From a virus, in the IMG/VR virus record IMGVR_UViG_3300022874_000036, positions 1-27,271 of that record: 27,271 bases of DNA; one strand, written 5' to 3'. Within the stretch, counting starts at the first letter, position 1; the number at the start of each line of letters is the position of its first letter. This document shows positions 1 through 27,271 of the stretch, one piece after another. Under the pieces are notes generated by a model that worked only from the letters and a program-made list of their open reading frames with translations, did not search any database and was not told the origin of the DNA. The translations under genes were made by a program, and so were the position numbers.

Positions 1-225
1 AGTAAATCTAAGAACAAGGCTGAGACTTTGACTGACGTAACTGTCCGTAAGATGATCTATGAAGTTCTTGATGAGGCTAACATCAAGCGTCATAAGTGTG
101 AGAAGTGTTCGGCTCTTTTCTACAGAGCCAGCCCGGCCCAAAAGATTTGCTTGACCTGCCGCAATAATAGGGAACAGAATGTTCCCAAACTTGACAATGG
201 AACATTGTCTAAGGAGAGCAAGTGA
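1..225 (+). CDS. Small zinc-ribbon protein, 3' part (5' end outside window)
   Basis: The frame is open to the left edge, so this is probably the last 74 codons of a gene that begins upstream. Internal candidates are TTG at 28 and ATG at 52, and neither has a convincing Shine-Dalgarno (SD). The readable part has two CxxC pairs (CEKC and CLTC) about 15 residues apart, a typical structural zinc ribbon, followed by a charged tail. Its TGA overlaps the ATG of the scaffold-like gene by one base (TGATG), so the two are translationally coupled. Position just before the head genes suggests a late-module accessory protein, but no function can be assigned. Confidence is good that it is coding and low on its role. 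Confidence 0.6.
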   Translation, partial: SKSKNKAETLTDVTVRKMIYEVLDEANIKRHKCEKCSALFYRASPAQKICLTCRNNREQNVPKLDNGTLSKESK

Positions 226-5474: not shown

Positions 5475-5623
5475 TGCAGCCCGACCACAGGGAATGTATA
5501 GACAGGCTCCATGCGATTGCGGAAGAGTACCACAAACAAGGGATTCGTTCCGAGGATCAATGTGCCCTTCGGTGGTCTGCGAATATAGTGGCCATTGAAA
5601 TGAATAAAGGGGAGGCCACATAA
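5474..5623 (+). CDS. 49-residue helical protein, unknown
   Basis: This is a short gene with a very strong SD (GGGGGAG, about 5460-5466), starting at ATG 5474 inside the preceding TAA and ending at TAA 5621-5623, which overlaps the ATG of the tail-fibre gene. The product is charged and helical, with two cysteines and a tryptophan (MQPDHRECIDRLHAIAEEYH at the N-terminus). Tight overlap at both ends makes it a real gene despite its size. Tiny genes directly before fibres are sometimes fibre chaperones; that is unproven here. Confidence 0.55.
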   Translation: MQPDHRECIDRLHAIAEEYHKQGIRSEDQCALRWSANIVAIEMNKGEAT

Positions 5624-7655: not shown

Positions 7656-7661
7656 TCTCAC

Positions 7662-7705
7662 GAAATCCGTAGGATTTCAGTTAACTATAATTTCAAGGAA
7701 ATTAT
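7662..7705. repeat. Paired mini-hairpin element: hairpin-AGTTAACT-hairpin
   Basis: Hairpin 7662-7678 has arms GAAATCC/GGATTTC and loop GTA. The perfectly palindromic linker AGTTAACT spans 7679-7686. Hairpin 7687-7705 has arms ATAATTTC/GAAATTAT and loop AAG, and is followed by GTGATG. The SD for the next gene (AAGGAA, 7695-7700) lies in the loop and right arm of the second hairpin. This is the only copy of the family seen in the left arm. Confidence 0.75.
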
Positions 7706-7708
7706 GTG

Positions 7709-7933
7709 ATGCAGAAGCTGGCTTTACCAATCAGGGGGATCTCAAAGGGTCTGACTGTAGCCGTGACTCCACAAGAGTATACCACGAATATTAGTAATGT
7801 CCGCCCTAGGGATGTTTTGGAACAGCGGATCAGGTTGGGACAAAGACCAGGATTAGCTAAGTGGTCTAGTGTACAAGTTGGTGCTGCTTCCAATCCGGTA
7901 GTAGCTATTTGCTCAGTTTCTTCAATTAGTTAG
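7709..7933 (+). CDS. Short N-terminal-like piece of a tail protein ('GQRPG' motif)
   Basis: This is a 74-residue product from ATG 7709 (AAGGAA at 7695-7700, 8 nt spacing); GTG 7706 is the alternative. The core, NVRPRDVLEQRIRLGQRPGL, is the hallmark of the first ~60 residues of a group of large podovirus tail proteins that continue into a propeller-like domain. Here the frame stops at TAG 7931, and the propeller-like domain appears as a separate gene at 9196-10791, after an inserted fibre gene. It therefore looks like the detached N-terminal part of that protein. It may still act as a separate subunit, because its own start and SD are intact. The SD lies inside a mini-hairpin, so translation may be regulated. 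I rely on remembered family patterns, so certainty is moderate. Confidence 0.55.
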   Translation: MQKLALPIRGISKGLTVAVTPQEYTTNISNVRPRDVLEQRIRLGQRPGLAKWSSVQVGAASNPVVAICSVSSIS

Positions 7934-13038: not shown

Positions 13039-13938
13039 ATGGGAATAGAATTCAAACATGGAGCAGCAGAAGTTAAAGCACTGGCAGCACAAGCTGGGAA
13101 AGCTCAGGCTGCTAACGTTGCATTGAATCAACGATTCACAAAAGATATGGCAATGATGGACTACCAGTTCAAGCTTGCTGGCGAGCAGAGAGCTAGAGCT
13201 TGGGATCTTGAGAAGATGGAGATCGCTTCTCGGAATGATTTCCAGCAGGAGGAAACTGCTAGGGTTCAGAAACAACAGCAGTGGAGCCTTATCAAGAAAC
13301 AGATTGAGGATTCAGATATTCTAAGTGAGCCACAGAAAGAACAGGCCCTACATGAGAACTTTATGAAGCTTCATGGCGGTGTGGTTCCCAGGCAGAAAAG
13401 TGTTGAAGAGCAAATGATGGAAGCTGCATTCAATGGCCCACAAGGTGGTGGAAAGACTGGAGGACCAACACAAGGGTCGCAGGATACTGCTCAGTCTAGT
13501 CCAGATCCCGGTCGTTCCCTCGGCGTTGTTGAAACCCCAGAAGGTATGCAAGTTATGTCCCCAGATGGTGGGATGAAGCCAATCAATCAAAGCGGTATGG
13601 TCAATGTAATTAACCCTAGTGGTGAGAGAGTTAAGATTAAGGGCTCACAGTTACAAGAGGCTATCGCAGAAGGATACCAGTTTATTGGTGTGGCAGCTTC
13701 TTCTATGGGACAGACCACAAAGAGTCCCACTACGACTGCTCCTCGACAGAAGGATTCCTCATTTGATTTTGAGGAAGATGTACTTGCTGGAATTTTTGGT
13801 GCGGACACCACTATTAAGTCCAGAGACGTAACAACAGAGGACATCTCCAGGATGGGTTGGAACCCAAGATCCAAAACTATAAAACCTAAAAATAAGAAGC
13901 CCTCTGCTCTTCGTAAATTACTTCCTTGGAGTAAATAA
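13039..13938 (+). CDS. Internal virion protein, coiled-coil
   Basis: This is a 299-residue protein. ATG 13039 lies 2 bp after the previous stop, with GGAG 11 bases upstream. Residues ~5-115 are strongly helical and charged with many Gln, Glu and Lys (AGEQRARAWDLEKMEIASRN), likely a long coiled coil. A Gly/Pro/Ser-rich hinge follows, then a small domain with VNVINPSGERVKIKGSQLQE and AIAEGYQFIG, a pattern that recurs in phage internal proteins. The C-terminus is basic (PKNKKPSALRKLLPWSK). Placement directly before the 1028-residue internal protein fits the trio of ejection proteins in podoviruses. The role in DNA delivery is inferred. Confidence 0.5.
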   Translation: MGIEFKHGAAEVKALAAQAGKAQAANVALNQRFTKDMAMMDYQFKLAGEQRARAWDLEKMEIASRNDFQQEETARVQKQQQWSLIKKQIEDSDILSEPQKEQALHENFMKLHGGVVPRQKSVEEQMMEAAFNGPQGGGKTGGPTQGSQDTAQSSPDPGRSLGVVETPEGMQVMSPDGGMKPINQSGMVNVINPSGERVKIKGSQLQEAIAEGYQFIGVAASSMGQTTKSPTTTAPRQKDSSFDFEEDVLAGIFGADTTIKSRDVTTEDISRMGWNPRSKTIKPKNKKPSALRKLLPWSK

Positions 13939-13940
13939 TT

Positions 13941-17321: not shown

Positions 17322-17546
17322 CTAAGGCCCAGCGACCTGGGCCTTGCCTCCCATACGATAGGGCCATAAAGGGCACCAGTTAATATCACAGGAGTTTACT
17401 AGGCTTTCCTGCCATAGCATACAATCCAGGCACTTGGCCCTGATCGCTGCTTTCCTGGAACTGAGCCCATCTTCTATAGCCCGCTGGTATATCTTCTTAT
17501 GTCTAGCTGATCGCTTACGATAATACTCCGACTGTTTTTTGTTCAC
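17322..17546 (-). CDS. Four-cysteine small protein (CLDC...CPLWPYR type)
   Basis: This 74-residue product starts at GTG 17544-17546 with GAGG 6-7 bases upstream; an in-frame TTG at 17567 lies inside the previous gene and lacks an SD. The N-terminal half is very basic and helical (QSEYYRKRSARHKKIYQRAI). The C-terminal half carries C39xxC42, C53 and C58 in the context CPLWPYRMG, a metal-site pattern I recognise from many uncharacterised phage proteins. The combination suggests nucleic-acid binding. The last codons are encoded within a GC-rich hairpin (17324-17345). Confidence 0.6.
   Translation of the reverse strand: MNKKQSEYYRKRSARHKKIYQRAIEDGLSSRKAAIRAKCLDCMLWQESLVNSCDINWCPLWPYRMGGKAQVAGP
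17324..17345. terminator. Strong GC hairpin at the convergent junction
   Basis: Arms AAGGCCCAG (17324-17332) and CTGGGCCTT (17337-17345) form a perfect 9-bp stem with loop CGAC. It lies where the + strand late genes (end 17203) meet the - strand genes. There is no clear U-tract on either side, so a bidirectional terminator is inferred from position and stability. Confidence 0.5.
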
Positions 17547-17748: not shown

Positions 17749-17967
17749 TCACCGCCATTCAGGATAAATCATAATTTGTGTGTGAAGTACCACAACAGTA
17801 TCACATTTTGGGCAGCTGGCTGCTTGGCCATCTAAATCACCAGCAACGGATGGAGCAATATCCCCTATGGTATAGTCATTCAGTTGACAAGGACCAGACT
17901 TTGATTGAAACTCTATCTCTGATCCACAGTTCTTACAATTAATTCTAAAACTATCAAACATTCCCAT
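17749..17967 (-). CDS. Zinc-ribbon protein ('MGMFDS' family)
   Basis: This 72-residue protein starts MGMFDSFRINCKNCGSEIEF, a beginning shared by many uncharacterised phage and mobile-element proteins. It has C11xxC14 and C52xxC55, a probable zinc site, and an intervening QSKSGPCQLNDYTIGDIAP segment also typical of the group. Its ATG (17965-17967) abuts a hairpin (17968-17988) whose loop carries the SD sequence TAAGG, so ribosome access may be controlled by that structure. The function is not known. Confidence 0.65.
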   Translation of the reverse strand: MGMFDSFRINCKNCGSEIEFQSKSGPCQLNDYTIGDIAPSVAGDLDGQAASCPKCDTVVVLHTQIMIYPEWR

Positions 17968-18012
17968 TGTAATTTCCTTAAAATTACATTAACTTAGTTT
18001 GTTTCACAAACT
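17968..18012. repeat. Paired mini-hairpins upstream of the MGMFDS gene
   Basis: Hairpin 17968-17988 has arms TGTAATTT/AAATTACA and a 5-nt loop; on the - strand its loop TAAGG is the SD of the gene starting at 17967. A 7-nt linker TTAACTT (17989-17995) joins it to hairpin 17996-18012 with arms AGTTTGT/ACAAACT and loop TTC. The palindrome GAGATCTC follows at 18013-18020. The first hairpin closely resembles the one at 7687-7705 in the opposite arm. Confidence 0.7.
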
Positions 18013-18036
18013 GAGATCTCTATCCCTCCAACCCAC

Positions 18037-18108
18037 CAGACCTTCGGTCTGAGTTAACTTATTCACTAGACAAGCCCTGCTTGTCAATATTAGCAATCTC
18101 TGATTGCT
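18037..18108. repeat. Three-hairpin element with AGTTAACT and AATATT linkers
   Basis: Hairpin 18037-18051 (CAGACC/GGTCTG, loop TTC) is followed directly by AGTTAACT. After CACTA comes hairpin 18069-18085 (GACAAGC/GCTTGTC, loop CCT), linker AATATT (18086-18091), and hairpin 18092-18108 (AGCAATC/GATTGCT, loop TCT), then TACTTTG. The last two hairpins lie inside the 3' end of the 18059-18394 reading frame. Confidence 0.75.
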
Positions 18109-18394
18109 TACTTTGTGAATCGTGCCAGTGTTTATCAAGAATCTGCTTTGCTTTTGCCATGCGTTCACCATTCCAATGATATACATTTTCTGGCAATAAT
18201 CTATCACTGGCACTAACACACTTTACCACGCCCAGAATTCCTTTTCTAATCATACAGACACACATTGGAACAACAATAGCATAAGCCAGCAAAGTTAGAT
18301 AGTATCTCCCATAAGCAATCAGTACAATCCACAAAGCTCCATCACCGGCTTCTCTAGCCAAGTCGCACAACATCTTAAACTGTTCCATGTTCAT
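18059..18394 (-). CDS. Small membrane protein with two hydrophobic segments
   Basis: This 111-residue protein starts at ATG 18392-18394, with GAGGAGG seven bases upstream, and overlaps the preceding gene by 4 bp. It has hydrophobic segments at ~20-32 (GALWIVLIAYGRY) and ~33-58 (YLTLLAYAIVVPMCVCMI), followed by a soluble charged tail. The last ~20 residues (SKQSEIANIDKQGLSSE) are encoded by two mini-hairpins of the dispersed family, as if the C-terminus had been extended by an inserted element. I do not recognise a family. Confidence 0.5.
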   Translation of the reverse strand: MNMEQFKMLCDLAREAGDGALWIVLIAYGRYYLTLLAYAIVVPMCVCMIRKGILGVVKCVSASDRLLPENVYHWNGERMAKAKQILDKHWHDSQSKQSEIANIDKQGLSSE

Positions 18395-18558
18395 GTCAGG
18401 TCCTCCTCAATAATTTCTCTTGCCAGTTGAATTTGTCCAGCCGCAAAGCCTTTCCAAAATGCATCATCTACATTTCCTCCAGCATAGTCATCAATAACAA
18501 CATCTTCCTCATCCAAGATACTTTTACGCACAGCAATTTCTTGTAGCCAGGGTTTCAT
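18391..18558 (-). CDS. 55-residue acidic protein, unknown
   Basis: This short gene has GAGGAG SD and ATG at 18556-18558, 2 bp after the exonuclease stop, and an ATGA overlap with the next gene. The product is acidic and helical at both ends, with a central DDAFWKGFAAGQIQLAREII segment. It has no cysteines and no membrane helix. The tight coupling on both sides makes it a credible gene. Its function is unknown. Confidence 0.55.
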   Translation of the reverse strand: MKPWLQEIAVRKSILDEEDVVIDDYAGGNVDDAFWKGFAAGQIQLAREIIEEDLT

Positions 18559-18560
18559 CC

Positions 18561-19304
18561 TTACTCCTCCTCTAACATCTTGTTATAGGTTGTATTACTC
18601 ACTGTAAAATATTTATGGCAATCGTTGCAGACAAGCTGATAACGTGGGATTCCCATAGCACTTACTCTAGTCTTGGAAAGAGATATATCCTTAGAGGCAC
18701 AGTGTACACAATGCCATCTTTCACCGCCTTCCAAAACAGCTATGTTAGTCTTGTGGGGACAGTAAGGGGCCAGTTCATGGTACACATTCTCCAGCATAGT
18801 AACGTCGTTCTTGCAATAATCTACCATTGTCTTAAGAGCTTTCTTCTCTCCAGACATTACTCTCTTCCACAGATCAAATCCAGTAGGAAGCTTTGCTACA
18901 CCTCCAAGGTACTGAGAAAGATAATCTAGCTTGTTAGAGTTGAAGTAGAATGTTCGAGCCCACTTCAATGTGTCAACAGTTTTGTATGTAGGGAAACAAG
19001 GAATGCCGTGCTTTACACACCTAGCACGTAACCAAGGAAGATCAAAGTGATCTCCATTGTGAAATACTACTTCGTCTGAATCATTCATTACCTCCATAAA
19101 TTCTCGGATTAATTCAACATCACTCTCTCCATCCCACGCAATGGACTTAACTTTCTTTTCCCCCTCCCATTTCCATGCTACGCAGATAATGTTTCTTTCC
19201 TTGATAATGTTTTCTGGTGAGAGATTAATCTTATAGCCAACTCTCCAAGAGTAAACTATATTTGGGGCAGTCTCTAGGTCCGCGAACAAACGTCTGATTG
19301 CCAT
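18561..19304 (-). CDS. DnaQ-like (DEDDy) 3'-5' exonuclease with C-terminal zinc ribbon
   Basis: This is a 247-residue protein. ATG 19302-19304 has AGAGGT 5-6 bases upstream. The three exonuclease motifs are present: ExoI D9-L-E11 (FADLETAP), ExoII N83xxxF87-D88 (HNGDHFDLPWL) and ExoIII Y163xxxD167 (DYCKNDVTML), the DEDDy arrangement of proofreading-type 3'-5' exonucleases. A C-terminal zinc ribbon follows (C199xxC202, C226xxC229), which is not usual for the minimal domain. No polymerase is fused or visible in the window, so it probably acts as a separate exonuclease on DNA during replication or repair, perhaps paired with a polymerase encoded beyond the window. Its start lies inside the 3' end of an HNH gene. 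Confidence 0.8.
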   Translation of the reverse strand: MAIRRLFADLETAPNIVYSWRVGYKINLSPENIIKERNIICVAWKWEGEKKVKSIAWDGESDVELIREFMEVMNDSDEVVFHNGDHFDLPWLRARCVKHGIPCFPTYKTVDTLKWARTFYFNSNKLDYLSQYLGGVAKLPTGFDLWKRVMSGEKKALKTMVDYCKNDVTMLENVYHELAPYCPHKTNIAVLEGGERWHCVHCASKDISLSKTRVSAMGIPRYQLVCNDCHKYFTVSNTTYNKMLEEE

Positions 19305-19786
19305 GGTATACCTCTTTTAATATCTGAAATTACTGATTGTGAAACTACAAAGAATTTGGCCAATCTTGTTTGTGTGACTGGACAGTTTCTACTAAATAGT
19401 TCCCTAATGGTATTTACTTTTTTATAATTGAGTTTAGATCCTCCATGTCTTTCACCACTATTATCTGTTCCGTGTTTAACCTTGTCTAGTAAATTATTTT
19501 TCCGGGTGTCCCATCGTAGATTTTCTATCCTATTATCATCCCGGATTCCATTGTTATGGCAAGACTCCTTACCTTGTGGACAAGGACTAACAAATGTTTC
19601 TAACATAATTCTATGTAGATAGGAAGTCTTTCTGTTTAATATAACCTGAACATACCCTCGTTCATACCTTGGGATCAGCCAGCCTCCTGTATTATTATTC
19701 TTTTTATCACTCCACACATTTCCATCCTCAGCAATAAAATATCCAGGATGCCTGGGAATTGGAAAGCATTCTTTTAGTTCACCCAT
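19274..19786 (-). CDS. NUMOD4/HNH homing-type endonuclease (copy 1)
   Basis: This is a 170-residue protein with start ATG 19784-19786. It has a NUMOD4-like N-terminus (FPIPRHPGYFIAEDGNVWS), an HNH_3-type nuclease core (LHRIMLETFVSPCPQGKESC, then HNNGIRDDNRIENLRW), and a C-terminal helix-turn-helix (TRLAKFFVVSQSVISDIKRG). The invariant-type His58 and His77-Asn78 are present. Such free-standing enzymes nick or cut recipient phage DNA and spread their own gene. Its last 31 bp overlap the start of the exonuclease gene in another frame, so it sits exactly at a gene boundary. It is related to the copy at 21719-22225 but clearly diverged. Confidence 0.8.
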   Translation of the reverse strand: MGELKECFPIPRHPGYFIAEDGNVWSDKKNNNTGGWLIPRYERGYVQVILNRKTSYLHRIMLETFVSPCPQGKESCHNNGIRDDNRIENLRWDTRKNNLLDKVKHGTDNSGERHGGSKLNYKKVNTIRELFSRNCPVTQTRLAKFFVVSQSVISDIKRGIPWQSDVCSRT

Positions 19787-19937
19787 TGGGGGCCTCCATT
19801 AGTTTTCTTAATTCTGCCATTAGTGAGCAGGTTTGGTCACTGAACAGATTGCGATTATCCTTCAGGATTTTCTTTAACAGAACCTGCTGGTTATCCAAGA
19901 TGTTATATAGTACTTTAATCAATAATTCATCAGACAT
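19779..19937 (-). CDS. 52-residue helical protein, unknown
   Basis: AAGGAGG lies six bases before ATG (19935-19937), an excellent start. The product is a charged amphipathic helix (LDNQQVLLKKILKDNRNLFS) with one Cys, probably coiled-coil. The stop lies 8 bp inside the start of the HNH gene. A mini-hairpin (19971-19987) lies upstream, between this gene and the deoxyribosyltransferase-like gene. The function is unknown. Confidence 0.55.
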   Translation of the reverse strand: MSDELLIKVLYNILDNQQVLLKKILKDNRNLFSDQTCSLMAELRKLMEAPNG

Positions 19938-19970
19938 GTTGAACCTCCTTGAATCTCTTTTTGGAATCTA

Positions 19971-19987
19971 ACAATGTTTCACATTGT
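19971..19987. repeat. Single mini-hairpin, loop TTC
   Basis: Arms ACAATGT/ACATTGT with loop TTC, preceded by CTA and followed by AATTACTGG. It begins two bases beyond the stop (19990-19992) of the gene ending there on the - strand, so it lies in the 3' untranslated gap. Confidence 0.65.
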
Positions 19988-19989
19988 AA

Positions 19990-20451
19990 TTACTGGCAAA
20001 GCTTAAAACGTTTCTTTGCCTGTTCTACAATCGGTGAAAGAACCTTACGAACTACACCGAAGTTTGCCTTCAATAAATCTTGGTAGATAATCTGTGGGCT
20101 TCTATTTAGGCAAAGGGTTGGTTCTGCCATTTTTAGAGTGACAGCTTCCAGATATTCTTCCTCGCACCCACGAGATTCACTAGTCCACCACCACATCCAT
20201 CCTGAACAGGCTCTTAGAATCTTTAGGTCAGCAAACATAAAATCATCAACATCAATGCGTTTATCATACCATAGAATTTGCAAGACCAGATCGTGATCCG
20301 CCGGGCAATAGATAGCCACCTCCGGGAACACACTTCTGATCTTGGAAGCAACTCTCATTGCTCTCTTACAGTTCTGTTCAATAGTCAGGTCTCCATTGCC
20401 TCTTACGGAGTGAGACATATACAAAGTAGGTTTTTGGAACTTAATTTTCAT
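19990..20451 (-). CDS. Nucleoside 2-deoxyribosyltransferase-like protein
   Basis: This is a 153-residue protein. ATG 20449-20451 has GGAG six bases upstream and overlaps the previous gene by 11 bp. The pattern fits the NDT/DUF4406-like Rossmann fold: an N-terminal strand ending in YMSHSVRG (nucleotide-binding loop), an N-x2-A-helix with A..VASKIRSVFPE, a YCPAD strand, VDDFMFADLKILRACSGWMW (Asp75 at a conserved place), and SESRGCEEEYLEAV, where a Glu (97-99) would be the nucleophile. Members transfer or hydrolyse deoxyribosyl groups and serve dNTP salvage or base-modification pathways. It lies next to a dATP/dGTP pyrophosphohydrolase-like gene, supporting a nucleotide-pool role. Homology is by pattern only. 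Confidence 0.5.
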   Translation of the reverse strand: MKIKFQKPTLYMSHSVRGNGDLTIEQNCKRAMRVASKIRSVFPEVAIYCPADHDLVLQILWYDKRIDVDDFMFADLKILRACSGWMWWWTSESRGCEEEYLEAVTLKMAEPTLCLNRSPQIIYQDLLKANFGVVRKVLSPIVEQAKKRFKLCQ

Positions 20452-20884
20452 AAACTTCTCCTTTAGCTTTCTCAGTATAAGGAAGTACCGGATTAGGATA
20501 CTTATCAGATATTGCTGCGGCCATGTTGTTGTAAGCTTCTATTCCTGCTCCACCTGGGATTCTAATTGGCCGGTCATCTTCCCAGTTCTCTGCAATCATA
20601 GAATCTCGGAAGGTAGCCAAGCAAGTTAGAACCTTTGTAATGTGAGACAACCCGGTATCTGGATCGTCATCTTCTCCTTCCCACCAAGCCATGAGATGCC
20701 TCATAGCCGCGTCATAATAAACAGAAGCTCGTACCCCTGCTTCTCTATAGTTATGGGAGCCATACTTACAAGCCCCATCCATCATTCCAAGACCCATCTC
20801 AAACAACACACGACAGGATACGTTGTGCATAGGAACTTTCTTGACACCAACCACATCCTTTGGGTTAGACTCTTTTTTCGACAT
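20441..20884 (-). CDS. dATP/dGTP pyrophosphohydrolase-like protein (DUF5664/MazZ-like)
   Basis: This 147-residue product is called from ATG 20882-20884, with a purine-rich SD (GGAGGTGAAGGG); the frame extends 19 codons further up but into the previous gene. NPKDVVGVKKVPMHNV, a helix with MMDGACKYGSHNYREAGV, and YYDAAMRHLMAWWEGEDDDP followed by LSHITKVLTCLATFRD match the all-helical DUF5664 family. Acidic and His residues (H63, E69, D72-D74, H81) suggest a metal site for a nucleotide pyrophosphohydrolase. Related MazZ enzymes act in 2-aminoadenine phages, but the family is also common outside them, and no PurZ or DatZ gene is visible here. Confidence 0.75.
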   Translation of the reverse strand: MSKKESNPKDVVGVKKVPMHNVSCRVLFEMGLGMMDGACKYGSHNYREAGVRASVYYDAAMRHLMAWWEGEDDDPDTGLSHITKVLTCLATFRDSMIAENWEDDRPIRIPGGAGIEAYNNMAAAISDKYPNPVLPYTEKAKGEVYEN

Positions 20885-21089
20885 GCCCTTCACCTCCAGG
20901 GAACTTGTTCCCAGACCTGGGGATGTATCCATCCCCACCACAGTTAATACAATCTCTCTTACCCTTGTCTAGTCCTTTTGGATTACACCGAGAACAGGGT
21001 ACCCCAAAAATTTTTAGGTAATTGTGGTCAAAAAACTTCTTGTTTACGCGACGAAATCTGTCGCCTTTGCCTGCTTGTCCATCAACCAT
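20865..21089 (-). CDS. Small 'GKGDRFR' protein with DnaJ-like zinc motif
   Basis: This 74-residue product starts at ATG 21087-21089, with GGGAG upstream; the frame is open 9 codons further up but overlaps the previous gene. The opening MVDGQAGKGDRFRRVNKKFF is characteristic of small phage proteins of unknown function. It has C..C (CSRC) and C..CxGxG (CINCGGDGY), a DnaJ-type zinc-binding arrangement. A palindrome (GGGAACTTGTTCCC, 20899-20912) lies within the 3' coding part. It overlaps its neighbours at both ends. Confidence 0.6.
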   Translation of the reverse strand: MVDGQAGKGDRFRRVNKKFFDHNYLKIFGVPCSRCNPKGLDKGKRDCINCGGDGYIPRSGNKFPGGEGHVEKRV

Positions 21090-21540
21090 TTGAACTCCCA
21101 AGAGTAACCAAGGCATTGCTCTTGCTCTTAATTATACTATCCTTCTTACGATTGTCAATGACGGCACCAAGGCCCAGGATACCAGCCAGCGTAAATCCAA
21201 GGCCAACAGGATCTACTGCACCACCTTGAGCGATAGCCCAACCAGCTTCTAGCAAAGCCTTACGCATAGCTTCCTGCTTATCCAGGTCTTCAACAGCAGA
21301 CGATACCTTAACTACATACATCTGAACTTCGGCGTCCAACTCTGCTCTAGTTACAGGTTCGTCAGTGAATGGGCTCTCTGTCATTACATCACAGCCTGAC
21401 CATGCCAACAGAAGTACACACACTATAGCACCAGCTACTAGGGTTTGGTTATGACGCAGGTATGTCTTGATACGTGATGCAATAGGCATCACGTTAACTG
21501 GAAGCTGTGCTTCCGTGATATTTTCAATTACCTTATTCAT
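21082..21540 (-). CDS. Membrane protein with two hydrophobic segments
   Basis: This is a 152-residue protein. ATG 21538-21540 sits inside the previous stop (TAATG), with AGAGGA 9 bases upstream. An N-terminal hydrophobic helix (TLVAGAIVCVLLLAWSGC, residues ~33-50) ends in a Cys that could be a weak lipoprotein signal but lacks a canonical lipobox. A helical coiled-coil region follows, and a second Gly-rich hydrophobic segment VDPVGLGFTLAGILGLGAVI lies near residue 120. Residues 7-15 (ITEAQLPVN) are encoded by a copy of the AGTTAACT-type hairpin element (21493-21519). Similar two-helix phage proteins are unassigned. It may be an inner-membrane or envelope-spanning protein. Confidence 0.5.
   Translation of the reverse strand: MNKVIENITEAQLPVNVMPIASRIKTYLRHNQTLVAGAIVCVLLLAWSGCDVMTESPFTDEPVTRAELDAEVQMYVVKVSSAVEDLDKQEAMRKALLEAGWAIAQGGAVDPVGLGFTLAGILGLGAVIDNRKKDSIIKSKSNALVTLGSSNG
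21493..21519. repeat. GTTAACT-hairpin-GTGAT element inside a reading frame
   Basis: GTTAACT (21493-21499), hairpin 21500-21514 (GGAAGC/GCTTCC, loop TGT) and GTGAT (21515-21519). It matches the intergenic copy at 25129-25156 over more than 25 bases with one loop change, though that copy lies 3.6 kb away in a non-coding gap. Confidence 0.75.
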
Positions 21541-21731
21541 TATACAAGTCCTCTCATATATGTGTGGAATCGTGGAGCAATCCACTTCTTGTTGGAAACA
21601 ATCTTCAACTCAACATCTTTCCATTCTTCTTCATCAGCATCAATACACAGTCCATACTTGCTACACAGTACTAGGTAATCTTCTACAAACTCTCTGCGAT
21701 TTGCTAATTCTCGTTTACTTAGCTCGTCCAT
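21540..21731 (-). CDS. Small acidic protein after the HNH gene, unknown
   Basis: This 63-residue product starts at ATG 21729-21731, with AAGGAA seven bases upstream; the frame runs 11 codons further up into the HNH gene, overlapping it by 13 bp. It is predicted helical and acidic (CIDADEEEWKDVELKIVSNK) with a basic end (FHTYMRGLV). The N-terminus MDELSKRELANRRE resembles the N-terminus of the upstream HNH product (MDERELAKREA), which may hint at where the HNH gene entered. The function is unknown. Confidence 0.5.
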   Translation of the reverse strand: MDELSKRELANRREFVEDYLVLCSKYGLCIDADEEEWKDVELKIVSNKKWIAPRFHTYMRGLV

Positions 21732-22225
21732 GCAATATTCCTTACTATTCGACCTATATGACATTGAAGAACTCTAAAACATTTTGCCAACTTTTGTTGC
21801 GTAATTTTTGGATTTTTATACAACTCCCTAATTTGAAATACTTGATATCTTGTTAGCTTTCTATTTGGATTGCCCTCCTTTTCTCTGCTGTATTCTGTTC
21901 CATGTATTTGTTTGTCCCTATTATTTTCCAACCGAGTTCCCCACCTTAAGTTACACAATCGGTTGTCTGTTCTAATACCATTGTTATGACAACATTCCGT
22001 ACCCTCTGGACAAGGCCCAGCAAAGGTCTCTAGAACAAGACGGTGTACTTTCTTAGAATGCTGTTCTCTATTTTGTACTAGTGTAATCTGCTTATAGCCC
22101 CCACTATTTGTTCCGGGATTTAACCATCGGCCCAGATACAAGCTCCAAATTCTGCCATCTTTGGTAATCTCATAATTGGGAAAACCAGAGATAGCTTCTC
22201 GCTTTGCCAACTCTCGTTCATCCAC
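21719..22225 (-). CDS. NUMOD4/HNH homing-type endonuclease (copy 2)
   Basis: This is a 168-residue protein. The start is GTG (22223-22225) with AAGGAG seven bases upstream. It has a NUMOD4-like start (ISGFPNYEITKDGRIWS), an HNH_3 core (HRLVLETFAGPCPEGTECCH, then NNGIRTDNRLCNLRW, with His61 and His80), and a C-terminal helix-turn-helix (QQKLAKCFRVLQCHIGRIVR). It is a diverged paralogue of the gene at 19274-19786, with the same domain order and close matches in the core. It spreads or protects its own locus by site-specific cleavage, as established for this class. Its 3' end overlaps the next gene by 13 bp, a pattern shared with copy 1. Confidence 0.8.
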   Translation of the reverse strand: MDERELAKREAISGFPNYEITKDGRIWSLYLGRWLNPGTNSGGYKQITLVQNREQHSKKVHRLVLETFAGPCPEGTECCHNNGIRTDNRLCNLRWGTRLENNRDKQIHGTEYSREKEGNPNRKLTRYQVFQIRELYKNPKITQQKLAKCFRVLQCHIGRIVRNIAWTS

Positions 22226-22236
22226 AGCATTACTCC

Positions 22237-22320
22237 TTAATGAATAATGAAACGAAACAATAGTTGCATAACTATAAAGCCAACACTAAAACCAACAATA
22301 AATTGGACTAGTCTGCTCAT
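22237..22320 (-). CDS. 27-residue hydrophobic peptide
   Basis: ATG (22318-22320) follows GGAAGG, which is placed in the last codons of the previous gene 3 bp upstream. The frame encodes MSRLVQFIVGFSVGFIVMQL plus LFRFIIH: one membrane helix with basic ends. The HNH copy 2 SD follows it. Overall it resembles the single-helix peptide at 17200-17265. Confidence 0.45.
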   Translation of the reverse strand: MSRLVQFIVGFSVGFIVMQLLFRFIIH

Positions 22321-22322
22321 AT

Positions 22323-22643
22323 TCAACTACCTTCCTTTACAACCTTTACCTCATATCCCAGTTCCTTAGAAATCTCCGCTACCGTCATCTCCTTGACTAT
22401 GACCTTCTTCTTTTCAATCAACTCAAGGACAAACCAAGGAAACCAGTAGCTATCCAGACTAATTCCATTCTCATGTTCCTTGTTAACCACGTACCTATTA
22501 CCAATAAAGCGATTCATTCCTTCGGTCCAACAAGTTGACCAGCCAAGGCTGTAATCTTCGGCCTTCCGTAGAACCTTAACAGTGTCACCAACTCCAATAC
22601 CACAGCTGTCTTGCATTACCTTGTAAGCTTCTCTCAGATCCAT
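22323..22643 (-). CDS. Conserved-type phage protein, unknown (GIGVGDTVKVLR)
   Basis: This is a 106-residue protein starting at ATG 22641-22643. The centre, GIGVGDTVKVLRKAEDYSLG, then WSTCWTEGMNRFIG and GISLDSYWFPWFVLEL, is a pattern seen in many phage early-region proteins of unknown function, with a predicted small beta-barrel. Its C-terminus is Lys/Val-rich with VAEISKELGYEV. The SD (AAAGGAAT) lies inside a mini-hairpin (22647-22663), so translation may depend on opening that structure. It is followed closely by a hydrophobic peptide gene. Confidence 0.6.
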   Translation of the reverse strand: MDLREAYKVMQDSCGIGVGDTVKVLRKAEDYSLGWSTCWTEGMNRFIGNRYVVNKEHENGISLDSYWFPWFVLELIEKKKVIVKEMTVAEISKELGYEVKVVKEGS

Positions 22644-22646
22644 TGG

Positions 22647-22663
22647 AATTCCTTTCAGGAATT
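22647..22663. repeat. Mini-hairpin enclosing a Shine-Dalgarno
   Basis: Arms AATTCCT/AGGAATT with loop TTC (GAA on the transcribed strand). On the - strand the right arm AAGGAA is the SD of the gene starting at 22643, five bases before ATG. Two other copies (7687-7705, 17968-17988) have the same arrangement. Confidence 0.7.
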
Positions 22664-22735
22664 AAGTGCTGTGTTAGCTAGTGCCAACAACATTAATATG
22701 AACAAGATTTCTAATACCGATCTCATTGTTTTCAT
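22655..22735 (-). CDS. 26-residue hydrophobic peptide (possible)
   Basis: The frame from ATG 22733-22735 encodes MKTMRSVLEILFILMLLALA plus NTALNS, looking like a signal-anchor or membrane helix. The SD is poor (GGA close to the ATG). It sits between two hairpins (22741-22789) and the SD-containing hairpin (22647-22663), which its 3' end overlaps. It is reported because two similar hydrophobic peptides occur nearby; it may be chance. Confidence 0.3.
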   Translation of the reverse strand: MKTMRSVLEILFILMLLALANTALNS

Positions 22736-22740
22736 TCCGT

Positions 22741-22789
22741 GCTCTAACGAATCTGTTAGAGCGAGTTTGGACAAACATTTTGTTTGTCC
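22741..22789. repeat. Two adjacent hairpins with 6-nt spacer
   Basis: Hairpin 22741-22762 has arms GCTCTAAC/GTTAGAGC and a 6-nt loop. The 6-nt spacer GAGTTT follows. Hairpin 22769-22789 has arms GGACAAACA/TGTTTGTCC and a TTT loop. The spacing and triloop match the other paired elements. These lie between the gene at 22810-23007 and the small downstream genes. Confidence 0.65.
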
Positions 22790-22809
22790 TTCTTTCTGTA
22801 TTGGCTCCA

Positions 22810-23007
22810 TTAAGAAACACCGTCGGAAGGAGTAAAGAGTTTGTGGTCTGATATTGATCCTCCTTCCCAGTAATTACTGTCGAATCCACATCCCCAACAA
22901 GCTCGATACTCCATTTGTTTTCCTGAGCGGTCATAATCTAATCGCAATTGGCCACGCTCAAACAATTCTCCACAATTCTTGCATCTAAAACTAAATTTAC
23001 TTTTCAT
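22810..23007 (-). CDS. Small two-CxxC zinc-ribbon protein
   Basis: This 65-residue protein starts at ATG 23005-23007, in an ATGA overlap with the HNH gene and with AGGAGG upstream. C9xxC12 and C37xxC40 form a classic zinc ribbon. Between them the sequence is basic (GQLRLDYDRSGKQ). Such small phage zinc ribbons are usually unassigned; several appear in this arm. The enclosed frame is short but has good SD and clear motif support. It probably binds a nucleic acid or protein, by inference. Confidence 0.6.
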   Translation of the reverse strand: MKSKFSFRCKNCGELFERGQLRLDYDRSGKQMEYRACWGCGFDSNYWEGGSISDHKLFTPSDGVS

Positions 23008-23402
23008 TTCAATAGCTCCTCCTTTATTTGAGTTAGTCTGTCTCTCCAGTTTGTATCGTGGATAGTAGCTTCAATCAACATGTCTGCCCAGTTGTCTCCC
23101 CTACTTCGTAACATTTCACGCATAAAATGTAACTGGTTCTTGTGTGCTGACATTGGACTGTTGACATGACAGTTGTGACATAGGCACGCTCCATTAATTT
23201 TATTCCACCTTACTCCGTAGTGCTTACATCTGTGTATATGGTGACTTTCAAGGCTAGTGGTGCTTCCACAGATTTCACACTTCCAGCCCGCGTTGTCTTT
23301 TACTTTCTTAGACCAGAGTTTATCAAGACAGCTGTTACCATAGCCCCTAAGTCTTTTTGGAACGCTAACTCTTTTCTTTCTACGCCGTCGTCTCTTAGCC
23401 AT
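23004..23402 (-). CDS. HNH / NinG-like nuclease
   Basis: This 132-residue product starts at ATG 23400-23402 inside the previous TAA (TAATG); the frame is open 7 codons further up but there is no SD. It has a very basic N-terminus (MAKRRRRRKKRVSVPKRL), then WKCEICGSTTSLESHHIHR and CLCHNCH: C42xxC45, His54-His55 and C75xxC78-H79. These give the zinc-bound HNH (beta-beta-alpha metal) nuclease. The arrangement 'LDKLWSKKV..AGWKCE.CG...SHH' recalls NinG (Rap)-type recombination nucleases of phages. It probably nicks or cleaves branched DNA, though a general HNH role is equally compatible. Confidence 0.65.
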   Translation of the reverse strand: MAKRRRRRKKRVSVPKRLRGYGNSCLDKLWSKKVKDNAGWKCEICGSTTSLESHHIHRCKHYGVRWNKINGACLCHNCHVNSPMSAHKNQLHFMREMLRSRGDNWADMLIEATIHDTNWRDRLTQIKEELLK

Positions 23403-23668
23403 TAGACACACCCACCACAACATCCATGAGGAATTTCTCTGTTTACTTCTATCTCAGCTTGTTCTTTCAAATCTTCTGGAAAATCATCTGGCCACTCGCA
23501 AATTGACCATTCTCCTTGTGTGACATGCTCAGTCCAATCCTCATCAAACCATACGCTGCCTCCAGAGGACAAACAATAGTCAGGAAATAACCAATCTTTC
23601 CCATCTATCATTACAATTAGTTTTCCTGAACATAAATTTGGATAACCCCCATCATATTTAATCAACAT
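23402..23668 (-). CDS. Small acidic Cys-rich-tailed protein, unknown
   Basis: This 88-residue protein starts at ATG 23666-23668 with AGGAGGAA-type SD. It is acidic, aromatic and likely beta/alpha (SSGGSVWFDEDWTEHVTQGE). The C-terminus CCGGC adds a possible metal site. It overlaps the upstream gene by 11 bp and the HNH gene by one base. I do not recognise a family. Confidence 0.5.
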   Translation of the reverse strand: MLIKYDGGYPNLCSGKLIVMIDGKDWLFPDYCLSSGGSVWFDEDWTEHVTQGEWSICEWPDDFPEDLKEQAEIEVNREIPHGCCGGCV

Positions 23669-23834
23669 TGTCTTCCTCCAACAATCTGATCGTTGACTTC
23701 AACTCTTCAATGGTTACGTAGGACACAAGCGTAACTTCACAATCATCAGCCTCATTGAACATCCTTATAATAAACTCTTTATGGTGTTTCTGAATTTCAC
23801 AACTACAGCCATAAGCATCTATTCGCTCAGCCAT
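23658..23834 (-). CDS. 58-residue small protein, unknown
   Basis: This short gene has ATG 23832-23834 and AAGGA about 12 bases upstream. It starts 16 bp inside the primase stop region and overlaps the next gene by 11 bp. The product is MAERIDAYGCSCEIQKHHKE at the N-terminus, then a helical acidic tail (EELKSTIRLLEEDN). Three cysteines do not form a clear site. Continuous overlap with both neighbours supports a real gene. Confidence 0.5.
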   Translation of the reverse strand: MAERIDAYGCSCEIQKHHKEFIIRMFNEADDCEVTLVSYVTIEELKSTIRLLEEDNVD

Positions 23835-24601
23835 TTTTGTGTCTCATCCTTTCCTTCTGCTAGATACATATCATAAAGATCATTGTAAGGCATTGGTGCA
23901 GCCACTTTTACTTCTCCTAACAATGCTGACAATTCATTAGCACCCTCTACTCCAGGGCCATCATAATCTGCTACAATAAGAATAGACTTAAACTCCTTGT
24001 TGGACAAACATTCACCCACCATGTCATTGCAGCCATTAGAGTTAGGTCTTGCTATTCCATGCAAACCGCATTCCAAAATAACTCCCAGATCAGAGCAGCC
24101 TTCTGTTATGTAAAGCACCTGTGAGGGATCAAAGGTTATCCTTGGGATAGTAAGGCCTCGACGTGAGCCACTAACTGTACCCTTGTTATTGTCTGGGAAC
24201 CTACGCAAGATACCAATTACATTGCCGAGACCATCTCTTTCAGGAAAAGTGCTGGCTGTCCCATCCCATCCGTGTTCTAGTTTCATCATGGTTACTTTTG
24301 AAAAAGCTAGGGGTGACTGAACCCCCGATGAAAATCTATTGCTTATATAATCCTGGTTTAGTTTATCCCAGTCTAGTGTTGCCAACTGTCCTGGTGTTTC
24401 AGTCCTCATGGACCTAAGTTTCTCTAGGTCTTTGTCTGGTATCTTGCCACTGTATCCGCAACTCCAACAATGAAAGAAGCCAGCCCATCCTCCTTCCAAG
24501 GTAACATCTAAATCTGGTGATCCTTTTTGTGATATATGATTTGGGCAAACGAACATGGATCTCTTGTAGTAGACCTTGCTTAGTTCCCAGTTCTCAATCA
24601 T
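23819..24601 (-). CDS. Primase: zinc-binding and TOPRIM domains
   Basis: This 260-residue product is called from ATG 24599-24601, with GAGGGG 8 bases upstream; an in-frame ATG 8 codons further up lacks an SD. The N-terminus has CPNH (C19, H22) and HCWSC (C45, C48), a primase-type zinc-binding domain. The centre is DGLGNVIGILRRF. TOPRIM motifs follow: YITEGCSD (E167, D171) and ILIVADYDGPGVEG (D212, D214). The layout resembles the primase half of T7 gp4-type proteins without the helicase, and the helicase is encoded separately at 25231-26139. It synthesises RNA primers at the fork, by family knowledge. It is short for a complete primase but has all key residues. Confidence 0.8.
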   Translation of the reverse strand: MIENWELSKVYYKRSMFVCPNHISQKGSPDLDVTLEGGWAGFFHCWSCGYSGKIPDKDLEKLRSMRTETPGQLATLDWDKLNQDYISNRFSSGVQSPLAFSKVTMMKLEHGWDGTASTFPERDGLGNVIGILRRFPDNNKGTVSGSRRGLTIPRITFDPSQVLYITEGCSDLGVILECGLHGIARPNSNGCNDMVGECLSNKEFKSILIVADYDGPGVEGANELSALLGEVKVAAPMPYNDLYDMYLAEGKDETQKWLSE

Positions 24602-24764
24602 ATCGAATCCCCTCATAATAGTCATGAATAACTACCGCCTCATCAGAAGATGATATCTTACAAGCCATTCGATCACAAGGTCTATCAGTAGTCCAGGTCT
24701 CTATTTTAACCCTCGCATCTGGGTTACACTCTACTAGTTTTTCAATTAGTTCTTTCACTGTCAT
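24594..24764 (-). CDS. 56-residue conserved-type protein (MTVKELIEKL)
   Basis: This short gene has ATG 24762-24764 and a GGTAGG-like SD. It overlaps the primase by 8 bp. It begins MTVKELIEKLVECNPDARVK, the opening of a widely distributed small phage protein (an alpha-beta fold of unknown function), and ends acidic and aromatic (VVIHDYYEGIRYD). It may modulate primase or another replication protein, by inference from coupling only. Confidence 0.6.
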   Translation of the reverse strand: MTVKELIEKLVECNPDARVKIETWTTDRPCDRMACKISSSDEAVVIHDYYEGIRYD

Positions 24765-24782
24765 CAGTACAACCTACCTTCC

Positions 24783-25064
24783 TTATTCTGCATACTTGCC
24801 GACGTAGCAGTACTTATTGTATTGTTCTGGGTGTATCACTCCATCCGAACATAGTGCGTCGGTCCAATTGTTAAACTCCTCGTCGATCATAACTTGGTCG
24901 TCCCTATTCTTGTGAAGCCATTCTTCATGTTCCTCATCAAATCTTGTAGACAATTCCTCTTCACTGGACACCAGCCCGAACCAATCAGACTCATAAGAGG
25001 TTATCTTCAGATACTCGGCATAGGCTTCCACCATATCCAACAATTCTACATTATTCCATATCAC
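24783..25064 (-). CDS. Small acidic protein, unknown
   Basis: This 93-residue product starts at GTG 25062-25064, with AGGAG exactly six bases upstream. It is very acidic with many aromatic residues (FDEEHEEWLHKNRDDQVMID, then NNWTDALCSDGVIH), predicted helical and with no metal site. It is the first gene after the helicase, behind the largest hairpin cluster (25077-25209), so its expression may be tuned by those hairpins. I do not recognise a family; DNA mimicry is one guess based on charge. Confidence 0.5.
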   Translation of the reverse strand: MIWNNVELLDMVEAYAEYLKITSYESDWFGLVSSEEELSTRFDEEHEEWLHKNRDDQVMIDEEFNNWTDALCSDGVIHPEQYNKYCYVGKYAE

Positions 25065-25076
25065 AAAATTCTCCTA

Positions 25077-25209
25077 GGGAATCAAAGATTCCCAACATTG
25101 ACAATCGAAGATTGTCTACTAGAATTTTAGTTAACTGGAAGCTTTGCTTCCGTGATTAGTATAGTCCTCTAGGGAAGTGAAACTTCCCAATATTGTCAGC
25201 AAAGCTGAC
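25077..25209. repeat. Largest hairpin cluster: five mini-hairpins with AACATT, AGTTAACT and AATATT linkers
   Basis: CCTA precedes hairpin 25077-25093 (GGGAATC/GATTCCC, loop AAA). AACATT links it to 25100-25116 (GACAATC/GATTGTC, loop GAA), then TACTAG. AGTTAACT at 25129-25136 leads to 25137-25151 (GGAAGC/GCTTCC, loop TTT), then GTGAT. CTCTA precedes 25172-25188 (GGGAAGT/ACTTCCC, loop GAA). AATATT links it to 25195-25209 (GTCAGC/GCTGAC, loop AAA), then TACC. The cluster fills the 166-bp gap between the helicase stop and the next start; nothing else recognisable lies there. Confidence 0.8.
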
Positions 25210-25230
25210 TACCTGGTTTATTTTGGAACT

Positions 25231-26139
25231 TCAAAACAATGTTCCTTTAGCAGAACTCTCATTTATATCTGACCATCTCATACAGAATGGTTCAAACTTA
25301 ACATTGATCTTTCCTGTAGGTCCAAACCTTTGCTTGGCTACAATAATTTCTGCTTCTTCTGCACAGTTAGTTAGCAGTGTTAGGTCTTTTGGTTTATCAT
25401 AATACTCTGGTCTGTGCAGTAGTAGAATCTCAAATGAATCGTTCTCAATAAAACCAGAATCCCTTATGTCTGTCTTTTCTGGAGTAGGGTCCATGCCTTT
25501 TACTATGTTTCTTTTGGCAACATCTTTTGTCAGTTGAGACAACAGAATAATTGGAACCTGTAGATCAATGGATATTCTAGCTAACTTCCCGGTCAGTTCC
25601 TTAATTCTTAAGGCTTCACTCTCTATTTTGAATGACCAATTGACTAACTGCAAGTAATCAATGAAGAATATTCTTACACCTTTTTTGTGCATGGCTTGCA
25701 TGGACTGCTCAATAGAGTCCTTCTTTGGTCCCTTCTCCAATAACCAGGATGGATACATTGATACAGCTGCTTCATCAACATAGATTCCTTTTAGTTTCTT
25801 TAGTTCTGCCTTTGCTGCTTTGATGGCTTGTTCTTCAGTCTTGCTTAACTTTCCTTTCTTGTGATAGTTGACTCTAGCTAGGGTGTATATCATGACTTCA
25901 ACGGTAGAAAAGGTACCACCTTCAATTGGAAATATTCCAACAGGAACCTCTTTTGCTGCGGCTAAAGCCATGCTTCTCATTAAACTACTCTTGCCCATTG
26001 AACTAACAGCACCAATAGTAATTACATGGCCGGGATGGAATCCTTTTATTGCATCGTCCAATGCTTTAATACCAGTGGTAATGCCTTGGGCAACTGGGTT
26101 GTTTAGTATTTTTTCTATGCTGCTTTGTATAGATTCCAC
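25231..26139 (-). CDS. DnaB-type replicative helicase (SF4 ATPase)
   Basis: This 302-residue product starts at GTG 26137-26139, with GGGAGGT six bases upstream; the frame is open to TTG 26154, which lies on that SD. Walker A is GAVSSMGKSS (43-52), an Glu follows at 73 (PIEGG), Walker B is VRIFFIDYLQLV (D161), the sensor-like strand is PIILLSQL, and AKQRFGPTGK (268-277) matches the arginine-finger region. It covers only the RecA-like helicase domain, with a short N-terminus, so it lacks the DnaB N-terminal primase-interaction domain. With the separate primase at 23819 it would unwind the fork. It is the best-supported replication gene here. Confidence 0.85.
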   Translation of the reverse strand: MESIQSSIEKILNNPVAQGITTGIKALDDAIKGFHPGHVITIGAVSSMGKSSLMRSMALAAAKEVPVGIFPIEGGTFSTVEVMIYTLARVNYHKKGKLSKTEEQAIKAAKAELKKLKGIYVDEAAVSMYPSWLLEKGPKKDSIEQSMQAMHKKGVRIFFIDYLQLVNWSFKIESEALRIKELTGKLARISIDLQVPIILLSQLTKDVAKRNIVKGMDPTPEKTDIRDSGFIENDSFEILLLHRPEYYDKPKDLTLLTNCAEEAEIIVAKQRFGPTGKINVKFEPFCMRWSDINESSAKGTLF

Positions 26140-26154
26140 GGCCTTACCTCCCAA

Positions 26155-26178
26155 GGGAGAAGAATCCTTTCTTCTCCC
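26155..26178. repeat. Ten-bp stem hairpin before the helicase start
   Basis: Arms GGGAGAAGAA/TTCTTCTCCC with loop TCCT. On the - strand the loop AGGA resembles an SD, but the working SD (GGGAGGT) lies downstream of the hairpin. It has no U-tract. It sits between the SSB-like gene and the helicase. The stem is longer and the loop larger than in the triloop family, so membership is uncertain. Confidence 0.6.
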
Positions 26179-26194
26179 GCCAACCTAGATTTAA

Positions 26195-26458
26195 TTAAAA
26201 TGGGCACTCATCCTTCGGCTTAGCAGTTCCCTGGTTATTCTTATCCATATAATGATCCATCAACATCTTCTGGGTACCAATCATAATATCCTTAAGGTCT
26301 GTCACCGTAAGGAACGGGCTTTCATCAAAAGTTTTGGTCTCCTCATTAAACTTCTTCTTCTTCAAACTAAAGGAGAACGTGGTCTGCTCCTTATAAGTTC
26401 CCTGCCACTTCGCGAATTCTACCATGCCCACCTTGAACTGAGATACAGGACCTGCCAT
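26195..26458 (-). CDS. Putative single-stranded DNA-binding-like protein
   Basis: This 87-residue protein is called from ATG 26456-26458. The body is strand-rich and basic (VEFAKWQGTYKEQTTFSFSL, then KKKKFNEETKTF) and the C-terminus is TAKPKDECPF, with an acidic-aromatic tip recalling the DDDIPF tail by which SSBs recruit partners. It is encoded immediately before the helicase and near the primase, a normal place for an SSB. The fold is not confirmed as an OB domain and the protein is short. It may instead be a small transcription or annealing factor. The assignment is suggestive only. Confidence 0.45.
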   Translation of the reverse strand: MAGPVSQFKVGMVEFAKWQGTYKEQTTFSFSLKKKKFNEETKTFDESPFLTVTDLKDIMIGTQKMLMDHYMDKNNQGTAKPKDECPF

Positions 26459-26487
26459 AATACATTCCTTAAATGTGTGTCAATATT

Positions 26488-27021
26488 TTAATTGTCAAAA
26501 ACATTTCCGATTACTTTGTATGTACAGACTGTTCTGCCATTGTAAAAGTCAATGACCTTTGGCTTAACACCTCCTCCTGTTTGACATTTGTAACAATCAT
26601 AAGACACAAATTTACCTCCAATTTTTAGAACAATTCTCTTTCCTCCACAATCATTAGTGACAATATCTCCATGCTTCGGTTGAATATCCTTCGCTTTCTG
26701 GGCTATGCGTCGTTCCTCCGTATCCTCCTTCTTTAGCTGTTCCAGGTTATCATTAAGAGTTTTAATGTTTGCTTCACATTGCTTGATCTTGTCATTGCTC
26801 ATCAGTTTTTTCTCCTTTTTAATCCACTGGTTAAGAAATTGTTGTGCCCGTTCTCTGGTCTTCCAGTAACCTTCACTGAACCTGTGATAATCATATACCG
26901 CACAAGCATTCCGAGAAAACGTTCCATCCTTTTGTAAATACTTTCCTTCATTGTAATTAACAATGGTATATTCATTTGGTATTGGGTCATGTCTCCTTGG
27001 TTGAATAACTTCCCAGCTCAT
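26488..27021 (-). CDS. Two-part protein, unknown, with strong internal start
   Basis: This is a 177-residue product from ATG 27019-27021 (AAAGG upstream). Residues 1-70 resemble a small phage protein with alternating aromatics (NEYTIVNYNEGKYLQKDGTF, then GYWKTRERAQQFLNQWIKK). Residues ~74-100 form a coiled-coil (NIKTLNDNLEQLKKED), and the rest is a basic strand-rich domain with CGGKRIVLKIGGKFVSYDCY and CQTGGGV. An AAGGAG SD followed by in-frame ATG 26800-26802 (MSNDKIKQ) could give a separate C-terminal polypeptide. No function is recognised. Confidence 0.55.
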   Translation of the reverse strand: MSWEVIQPRRHDPIPNEYTIVNYNEGKYLQKDGTFSRNACAVYDYHRFSEGYWKTRERAQQFLNQWIKKEKKLMSNDKIKQCEANIKTLNDNLEQLKKEDTEERRIAQKAKDIQPKHGDIVTNDCGGKRIVLKIGGKFVSYDCYKCQTGGGVKPKVIDFYNGRTVCTYKVIGNVFDN

Positions 27022-27024
27022 CCT

Positions 27025-27271
27025 TTAATTCTCCTTAATAAGTTTAATACAGGCTTTTACATTATCAGCTGTAGGGAATCTCTGGAACTTTGCATAGACT
27101 TGTGATGCTGTCCACTTTGTTTCCTGTTCCACTATCTTTAATGCTTCTTGCTGTGGAACGGTTGGAGTTGGGCAGGTGAGGTCTGAAACCACGCCAGAGA
27201 AGCCTTGCTTCTCAGTAACTTGGGAGCTTTGCTCCCTGGCTGTCTTAGGTTTTGGGAACGCAAGCTCTTCT
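27025..27271 (-). CDS. Partial gene, C-terminal 81 residues, containing a hairpin pair
   Basis: The frame is open to the right edge; the gene starts outside. The visible part begins EELAFPKPKTAREQSSQVTE and has a low-complexity, Ser/Gln/Pro-rich linker followed by an ordered helical end (QQEALKIVEQETKWTASQVY, then KACIKLIKEN). The segment REQSSQVTEKQGFSG is encoded by two mini-hairpins (27197-27236), looking like an in-frame insertion in a tolerant linker. It ends in the SD region of the next gene. The function is unknown. Confidence 0.5.
   Translation of the reverse strand, partial: EELAFPKPKTAREQSSQVTEKQGFSGVVSDLTCPTPTVPQQEALKIVEQETKWTASQVYAKFQRFPTADNVKACIKLIKEN
27197..27236. repeat. Paired mini-hairpins inside a reading frame
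   Basis: Hairpin 27197-27213 (GAGAAGC/GCTTCTC, loop CTT), linker AGTAACTT (one base shorter than AGTTAACT plus T), and hairpin 27222-27236 (GGGAGC/GCTCCC, loop TTT). The pair is fully within the partial gene at 27025-27271 and keeps its frame open. Confidence 0.75.

Follow-up and report, generated by a model that had tools for sequence, protein, structure and literature searches.

Miniature hairpin repeats shape both bacterial and mitochondrial genomes, and how they move is poorly understood. The promoter-early stem-loop (PeSL) cassettes of T4 are mobile stem-loop cassettes that lie between phage genes and carry an early promoter. The GTAG REPs have stems of 5-13 bp, form dimers and tandem clusters, often supply TAG stop codons with their ends, have copies in ORFs and, in some species, lie within palindromes (PMC3733652). 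The REP of S. maltophilia has an 8-bp stem and a 3-nt loop, and TnpA-REP enzymes cut REPs as single-stranded hairpins (PMC8266576); for Pseudomonas it is the doublet that has been proposed to move (PMC3116915). The sections of PMC2800124 drawn on here describe mitochondrial double-hairpin elements as two adjacent hairpins, dispersed between and inside genes and patchy among relatives, and the Rickettsia palindromic elements are palindromic inserts that lie in frame within ORFs (PMC10969869).

The DNA considered here, a window of 27,271 nt, represents part of the genome of an uncultured tailed phage and lies inside the 35,088-bp contig IMGVR_UViG_3300025736_000090 (99.96% identity). Its hairpin units, some 40 letters long, are scattered, stacked and inserted into one another within a little-known lineage of bacterial viruses and are probably mobile; we consider it likely, from sequence comparison, that they make up two related families of short non-coding, non-autonomous mobile hairpin repeats. 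Mobility is thus deduced by comparing copies and sites, rather than from observed movement.

Structural genes occupy 1 to 17 kb of the window and point rightward; the replication genes, pointing leftward, take up the part from 27 down to 17 kb. At the convergent junction of the two blocks stands a strong, GC-rich 9-bp hairpin (17324-17345), likely a two-way terminator. A repeat array with a 57-nt period (19-aa repeats) occupies 6345-6734 within the 588-aa ORF 5623-7389. In the replication half, ORFs 19274-19786 and 21719-22225 are related (74% identity over a 73-nt stretch), the first of them matching HNH endonuclease families, and the 166-aa ORF 20441-20941 has as its best PHROG phrog_2252, described as endolysin, and also matches a dATP/dGTP pyrophosphohydrolase family. 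The phage also encodes an RtcB-type RNA ligase (L085 51-1190 in contig 3300025736_000090, outside the window; PF01139, E 9e-107). Strain L014 has two additional stretches relative to the window, of some 500-600 nt each, at 2264-2865 and 13670-14218, one of which, by eye, codes for a small endonuclease-VII/HNH-like protein.

Paired hairpins and their two classes

Hairpins were counted as perfect stems of at least 6 bp with loops of 3-5 nt, and 300 dinucleotide shuffles of the window served as control. The window holds 44 such hairpins (shuffle mean 21.5, maximum 33), 27 of them with 3-nt loops (mean 7.8, maximum 17), and 8 pairs 4-9 nt apart, for which the shuffles give a mean of 0.11 and at most 2 in 300. 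The hairpin pairs reported in the earlier note, whose coordinates and sequences were all correct, are therefore real, and further pairs lie at 170-209, 21472-21514 and, more weakly, 22741-22789. The linkers, too, are more frequent beside hairpins than chance provides: 3 of the 47 AAYRTT-type sites in the window are flanked on both sides by an abutting hairpin, as against 0 in each of the 300 shuffles, and AGTTAACT abuts a hairpin at all three of its sites (shuffle mean 0.003). The condition that the earlier note named as refuting its observation thus does not hold. Intrinsic terminators or chance palindromes would likewise appear as short stem-loops between genes, and the separate hairpin at the convergent junction is terminator-like, but no T run follows the units, some units lie within ORFs, their linkers and flanks are conserved and the shuffles do not reproduce the pairs; we hold such an origin to be extremely improbable.

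The units fall into two classes (Table 1). Class A reads TA-hairpin-AAYRTT-hairpin-TA, which extends to GTA-hairpin-AAYRTT-hairpin-TAG when written in one orientation. Its stems measure 5-7 bp and most of its loops 3 nt; the window has three full fits (18069-18108, 25077-25116 and 25172-25209) and one diverged copy (170-209). TA stands on both sides at all nine class A loci and the flanking G/C is likewise conserved at eight of them, so that a duplication of TA and a TA belonging to the unit itself are both compatible with the pattern. Standard units with the AATRTT linker read GTAG in eight cases of nine and GTAA in the other, the G being the first paired base of the stem; the L069 unit, with a 7-nt linker, reads GTAG, and that at 170-209 of the window TTAG. 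A half unit (AATATT-hairpin-TAG), its partner hairpin missing, occurs at L085 3197-3213 in ORF 2475-3356.

In a set of 19 different class A hairpins the five outermost stem pairs approximate R-R-S-A-A, with pair 4 always A-T, and the inner pairs and loops vary. The hairpins' own arms pair at 95 of 95 outer positions, as against a mean of 60.8 when arms are swapped between hairpins (maximum 77 in 20,000 permutations); arms taken from different hairpins match only 62% of the time. The sole exception to Watson-Crick pairing in the stems is a sense-strand G-U in L019. The proposal that linkers and outer flanks are conserved and stems are not is thus borne out for the linkers and flanks; the outer stem bases are partly conserved. 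Template switching during replication can create and keep perfect hairpins (PMC8794818), so that compensating stem changes alone are not proof of RNA function. Template switching might even make and spread the hairpins by itself, with no recognising enzyme, and the perfect Watson-Crick stems are what it would leave, but fixed linkers, TA edges and nesting at exact class B positions (see below) are unexplained by it alone, and as a full account it appears highly improbable.

The class B consensus is (A)TCAC-hairpin-AGTTAACT-hairpin-GTGA(T), represented without interruption in the window at 7662-7705, and no strain outside the window's own species has been seen to carry the class. Beside the loops of 7687-7705 and 17968-17988, or within them, lies a ribosome-binding-like AAGG(A) directly before a start codon, which the unit may hide or supply. 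The pair at 27193..27240 lies in a stretch that the L073 orthologue seems to lack, a weak indication, as the alignment there has 35% identity.

Table 1. Hairpin units and pairs in the window, by class
Feature	Position	Strand	Description
Class A-like unit	168..211	-	hairpins 170-186 and 193-209, linker AAACTT, TA flanks; part of the upstream ORF at its 3' end
Class A unit	18067..18110	-	hairpins 18069-18085 and 18092-18108, linker AATATT, TA flanks; nested in class B second-hairpin loop
Class A unit	25075..25118	-	hairpins 25077-25093 and 25100-25116, linker AACATT, TA flanks; nested in class B second hairpin
Class A unit	25170..25211	-	hairpins 25172-25188 and 25195-25209, linker AATATT, TA flanks; helicase stop codon 21 nt before
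Class B unit	7657..7710	+	CTCAC, hairpin 7662-7678, AGTTAACT 7679-7686, hairpin 7687-7705, GTGAT; fills stop-to-start junction
Class B unit	18032..18120	+	CCCAC, hairpin 18037-18051, AGTTAACT 18052-18059, second hairpin split by class A
Split second hairpin of 18032..18120	18061-18066 / 18115-18120		ATTCAC / GTGAAT
Class B unit	25060..25156	-	ATCAC, hairpin 25151-25137, AGTTAACT 25136-25129, GTGAT; split by class A
Split second hairpin of 25060..25156	25128-25121 / 25072-25065	-	
Diverged class B-like pair	17968..18012	-	linker AAGTTAA; directly precedes start codon of ORF 17749-17967; AAGG in loop
Class B-like unit	21472..21519	-	within ORF 21082-21585; hairpin and GTGAT flank match 25130-25156 at 26/27 bases
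Diverged class B-like pair	27193..27240	+	GCCA-hairpin-AGTAACTT-hairpin-TGGC, within 150-aa ORF
Hairpin pair	22741..22789	.	linker GAGTTT; without class A or B flanks, possibly unrelated

Class A units within class B units

With the class A unit at 25077 taken out, AAAATTCT[CCTACT]AGAATTTT is restored, an 8-bp hairpin standing where class B has its second one; read on the minus strand from 25156 to 25060, what remains is ATCAC-hairpin-AGTTAACT-AAAATTCT[..]AGAATTTT-GTGAT, a complete class B unit. Removal at 18069 restores ATTCAC[TACTTT]GTGAAT (6 bp), one base past AGTTAACT, again at the position of the second hairpin in class B. As background, restored stems of at least 8 pairs arise at about 0.09% of TA sites and of at least 6 at about 0.8%, and both cases are hard to explain except by insertion. 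The entire composite 25060..25156 folds as RNA at -30.3 kcal/mol (z -4.3). A general preference for insertion into loops was considered and dropped, with a strong hairpin restored at 2 of the 9 class A loci and a weak 4-bp one at 1.

Because class A is nested in class B, items listed separately in the earlier note at 18032-18120 and at 25060-25156 are each a single composite. Its defined composite unit accordingly stands as far as conserved linkers and flanks go, and is in fact two classes, some of the listed items being one class nested in the other.

Relatives and orthologous sites

Relatives, all of them metagenomic fragments, were collected by gene-based searches and range in protein identity from 100% to about 35%. 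As the earlier note had proposed, the unit was looked for in relatives and metagenomes, and class A was found with other stems and at other sites within the phage lineage (L019, L018, L075, L069 and L079), including a tandem array of three units at L079 1837-1962. An identical hairpin, GGGAATCTTTGATTCCC, stands at non-orthologous sites in the window and L079, and contig 3300033148_004783 holds the L018 and L075 copies, one base different, with the match stopping at CTA...TAC. Pattern scans of 2.9 million IMG/VR viral contigs, with only a few stem bases fixed, returned 42 and 17 stretches; both hairpins were perfect only in this uncultured phage lineage, the other matches having poor stems. Searches of phage and plasmid records found no units. 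For bacterial chromosomes, no unit with intact hairpins occurred in 84,980 genomes, a weak negative given a pattern that fitted only 15-nt first hairpins, and a broader pattern gave units in 0 of 791 genomes of two phyla. Across 28 related sequences, 547 sites with TA and linker spacing were either perfect or near-perfect units (10 distinct) or background, with no intermediates and no decayed class A copies among them.

Within the lineage the units are dispersed as a short hairpin repeated at many sites, with dimers and clusters. Copies are few, at most about 10 units in 35 kb, and their number varies among relatives, as does their position; many relatives have none. With respect to the genes beside them, units point either way. 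They supply stop codons, lie inside ORFs and are found in number where genes meet, in some cases immediately ahead of a ribosome-binding site or start codon.

Related phages are without the unit at three orthologous gene junctions. The pair at 170-209 lies in an ORF whose shorter orthologues in L006, L040 and L007 do not have it, that of L025 having an unrelated tail; the closing KE(S/T)K and stop are in frame in both the window and L006, consistent with a 42-nt insert. Around 7662-7705 the window has about 50 nt from stop to start, and the genes lie close together, with no unit, in L074 (junction sequence TTAAATGCAGAAGC), L018, L021, L082, L023 and L084. The L019 unit begins at the gene's stop codon and is missing from the orthologues in L015, L016, L017, L018 and L021; in L018 the exonuclease gene takes its TAG from a different unit. 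L078 and L019 are nearly identical, and the L078 contig stops exactly at the unit edge, as would be expected if that sample held the unit in repeated or polymorphic form. Strains with over 99% identity to the window have the same units as it does, and no strain pair differing by just one unit was found.

Occurrence in both orientations, inside ORFs, at stop codons and in tandem, together with absence from orthologous sites, favours a mobile hairpin repeat and tells against the earlier suggestion of a cruciform or two-headed RNA recognised by its shape, though a mobilising enzyme that recognised the folded single strand would likewise be reading its shape. The units might instead be structured RNA signals in phage mRNA, maintained by selection for processing, stability or translation control, with linkers and flanks as protein contacts and hairpins as scaffolds. 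Their frequency at gene junctions and before translation starts would suit this, as would the intactness of every stem, folds that beat shuffles in 5 of 6 units (z -2.4 to -6.7) and a sole imperfect pair that is G-U on the sense strand; but the orientations, the ORF copies, the empty orthologous junctions, the otherwise purely Watson-Crick pairs, unlike typical RNA stems, and the lack of any Rfam match at the gathering threshold make it unlikely. Units of the window first seemed co-oriented with transcription, as for a signal on the sense strand, an idea given up when L019, L079 and 170-209 proved opposite; N4-type hairpin promoters, which the 3-nt loops brought to mind, were set aside in view of units inside ORFs and at gene ends. 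Signals at the DNA level, whether cruciforms or single-strand hairpins, that serve the phage in place during replication, recombination or packaging would fit Watson-Crick-only stems and indifference to orientation, but copy number and position differ among relatives, many have none, and units interrupt other units, which leaves them very unlikely.

If the units are mobile repeats, each would fold in DNA left single-stranded while the phage replicates and would move in that form, and an enzyme acting in trans, perhaps a host TnpA-REP-like HUH enzyme, would cut and rejoin it at the TA of GTAG-like targets, stop codons and hairpin loops included. Perfect stems would last if only folded copies moved, if template switching at the fork copied one arm onto the other, or through selection in place, which the absence of decayed copies also fits. 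No Y1 transposase (PF01797; RAYT) was found in 16 related phage records, mostly fragments. One can imagine phage-specific miniature mobile DNA without a transposase of its own kind, as double hairpins whose insertion sites are TAs in stop codons, at gene junctions and in each other's loops, which are spread by the phage's own replication or recombination enzymes and keep perfect yet changing stems by template switching; this version we regard as rather unlikely.

Comparison with described elements

In our analysis the units are best read as resembling either GTAG-REP/REPIN/BIME elements or mitochondrial double-hairpin elements. With the former they share short hairpins, a GTAG-like foot, dimers, tandem clusters, TAG stops, copies in ORFs and insertion into palindromes; unlike them, they have stems that differ between copies. 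In contrast to GTAG REPs they are carried by a phage, with no RAYT gene in the 16 records, and the foot is not unpaired, the G of GTAG usually being the first paired stem base. Their linkers are fixed at 6 or 8 nt, whereas spacers in REPs are mostly 20-100 bp, and there is no REPIN-like inverted dimer with GTAG on both outer ends, one end being GTA(G) and the other a CTA(G) that enters the hairpin.

Unlike the T4 PeSL cassettes, the units have no promoter, by inspection, and also lie inside ORFs. A TA-target MITE (Tc1/IS630-like) would show TA duplication at its insertion site and the terminal inverted repeats of a parent transposon. Here TA stands on both sides at all nine class A loci, with no exact empty allele found, and the 42-nt length at 170-209 keeps the frame; the hairpin arms themselves are the only inverted repeats, and no parent element was seen. 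The Rickettsia elements are about 150 bp long and code for a conserved peptide, whereas the phage units are single hairpin pairs of about 40 bp. The mitochondrial elements likewise make two adjacent hairpins into one dispersed unit, but belong to fungal, algal and animal mitochondria, the sponge families having conserved stems, and linker classes like those of the phage are not described for them in the sections of PMC2800124 drawn on here.

A phage family of this kind would reveal where some short insertions in phages, in frame or at gene junctions, come from, and small phage genomes with nested copies and unit-free relatives would offer a simple system for watching such elements move. The nearest described behaviour is that of the GTAG REPs, in which we do not claim membership, the unpaired GTAG foot and the inverted order of GTAG dimers being absent; such miniature mobile DNA has otherwise been described mainly from bacterial chromosomes and mitochondria, and would here be found in phages.
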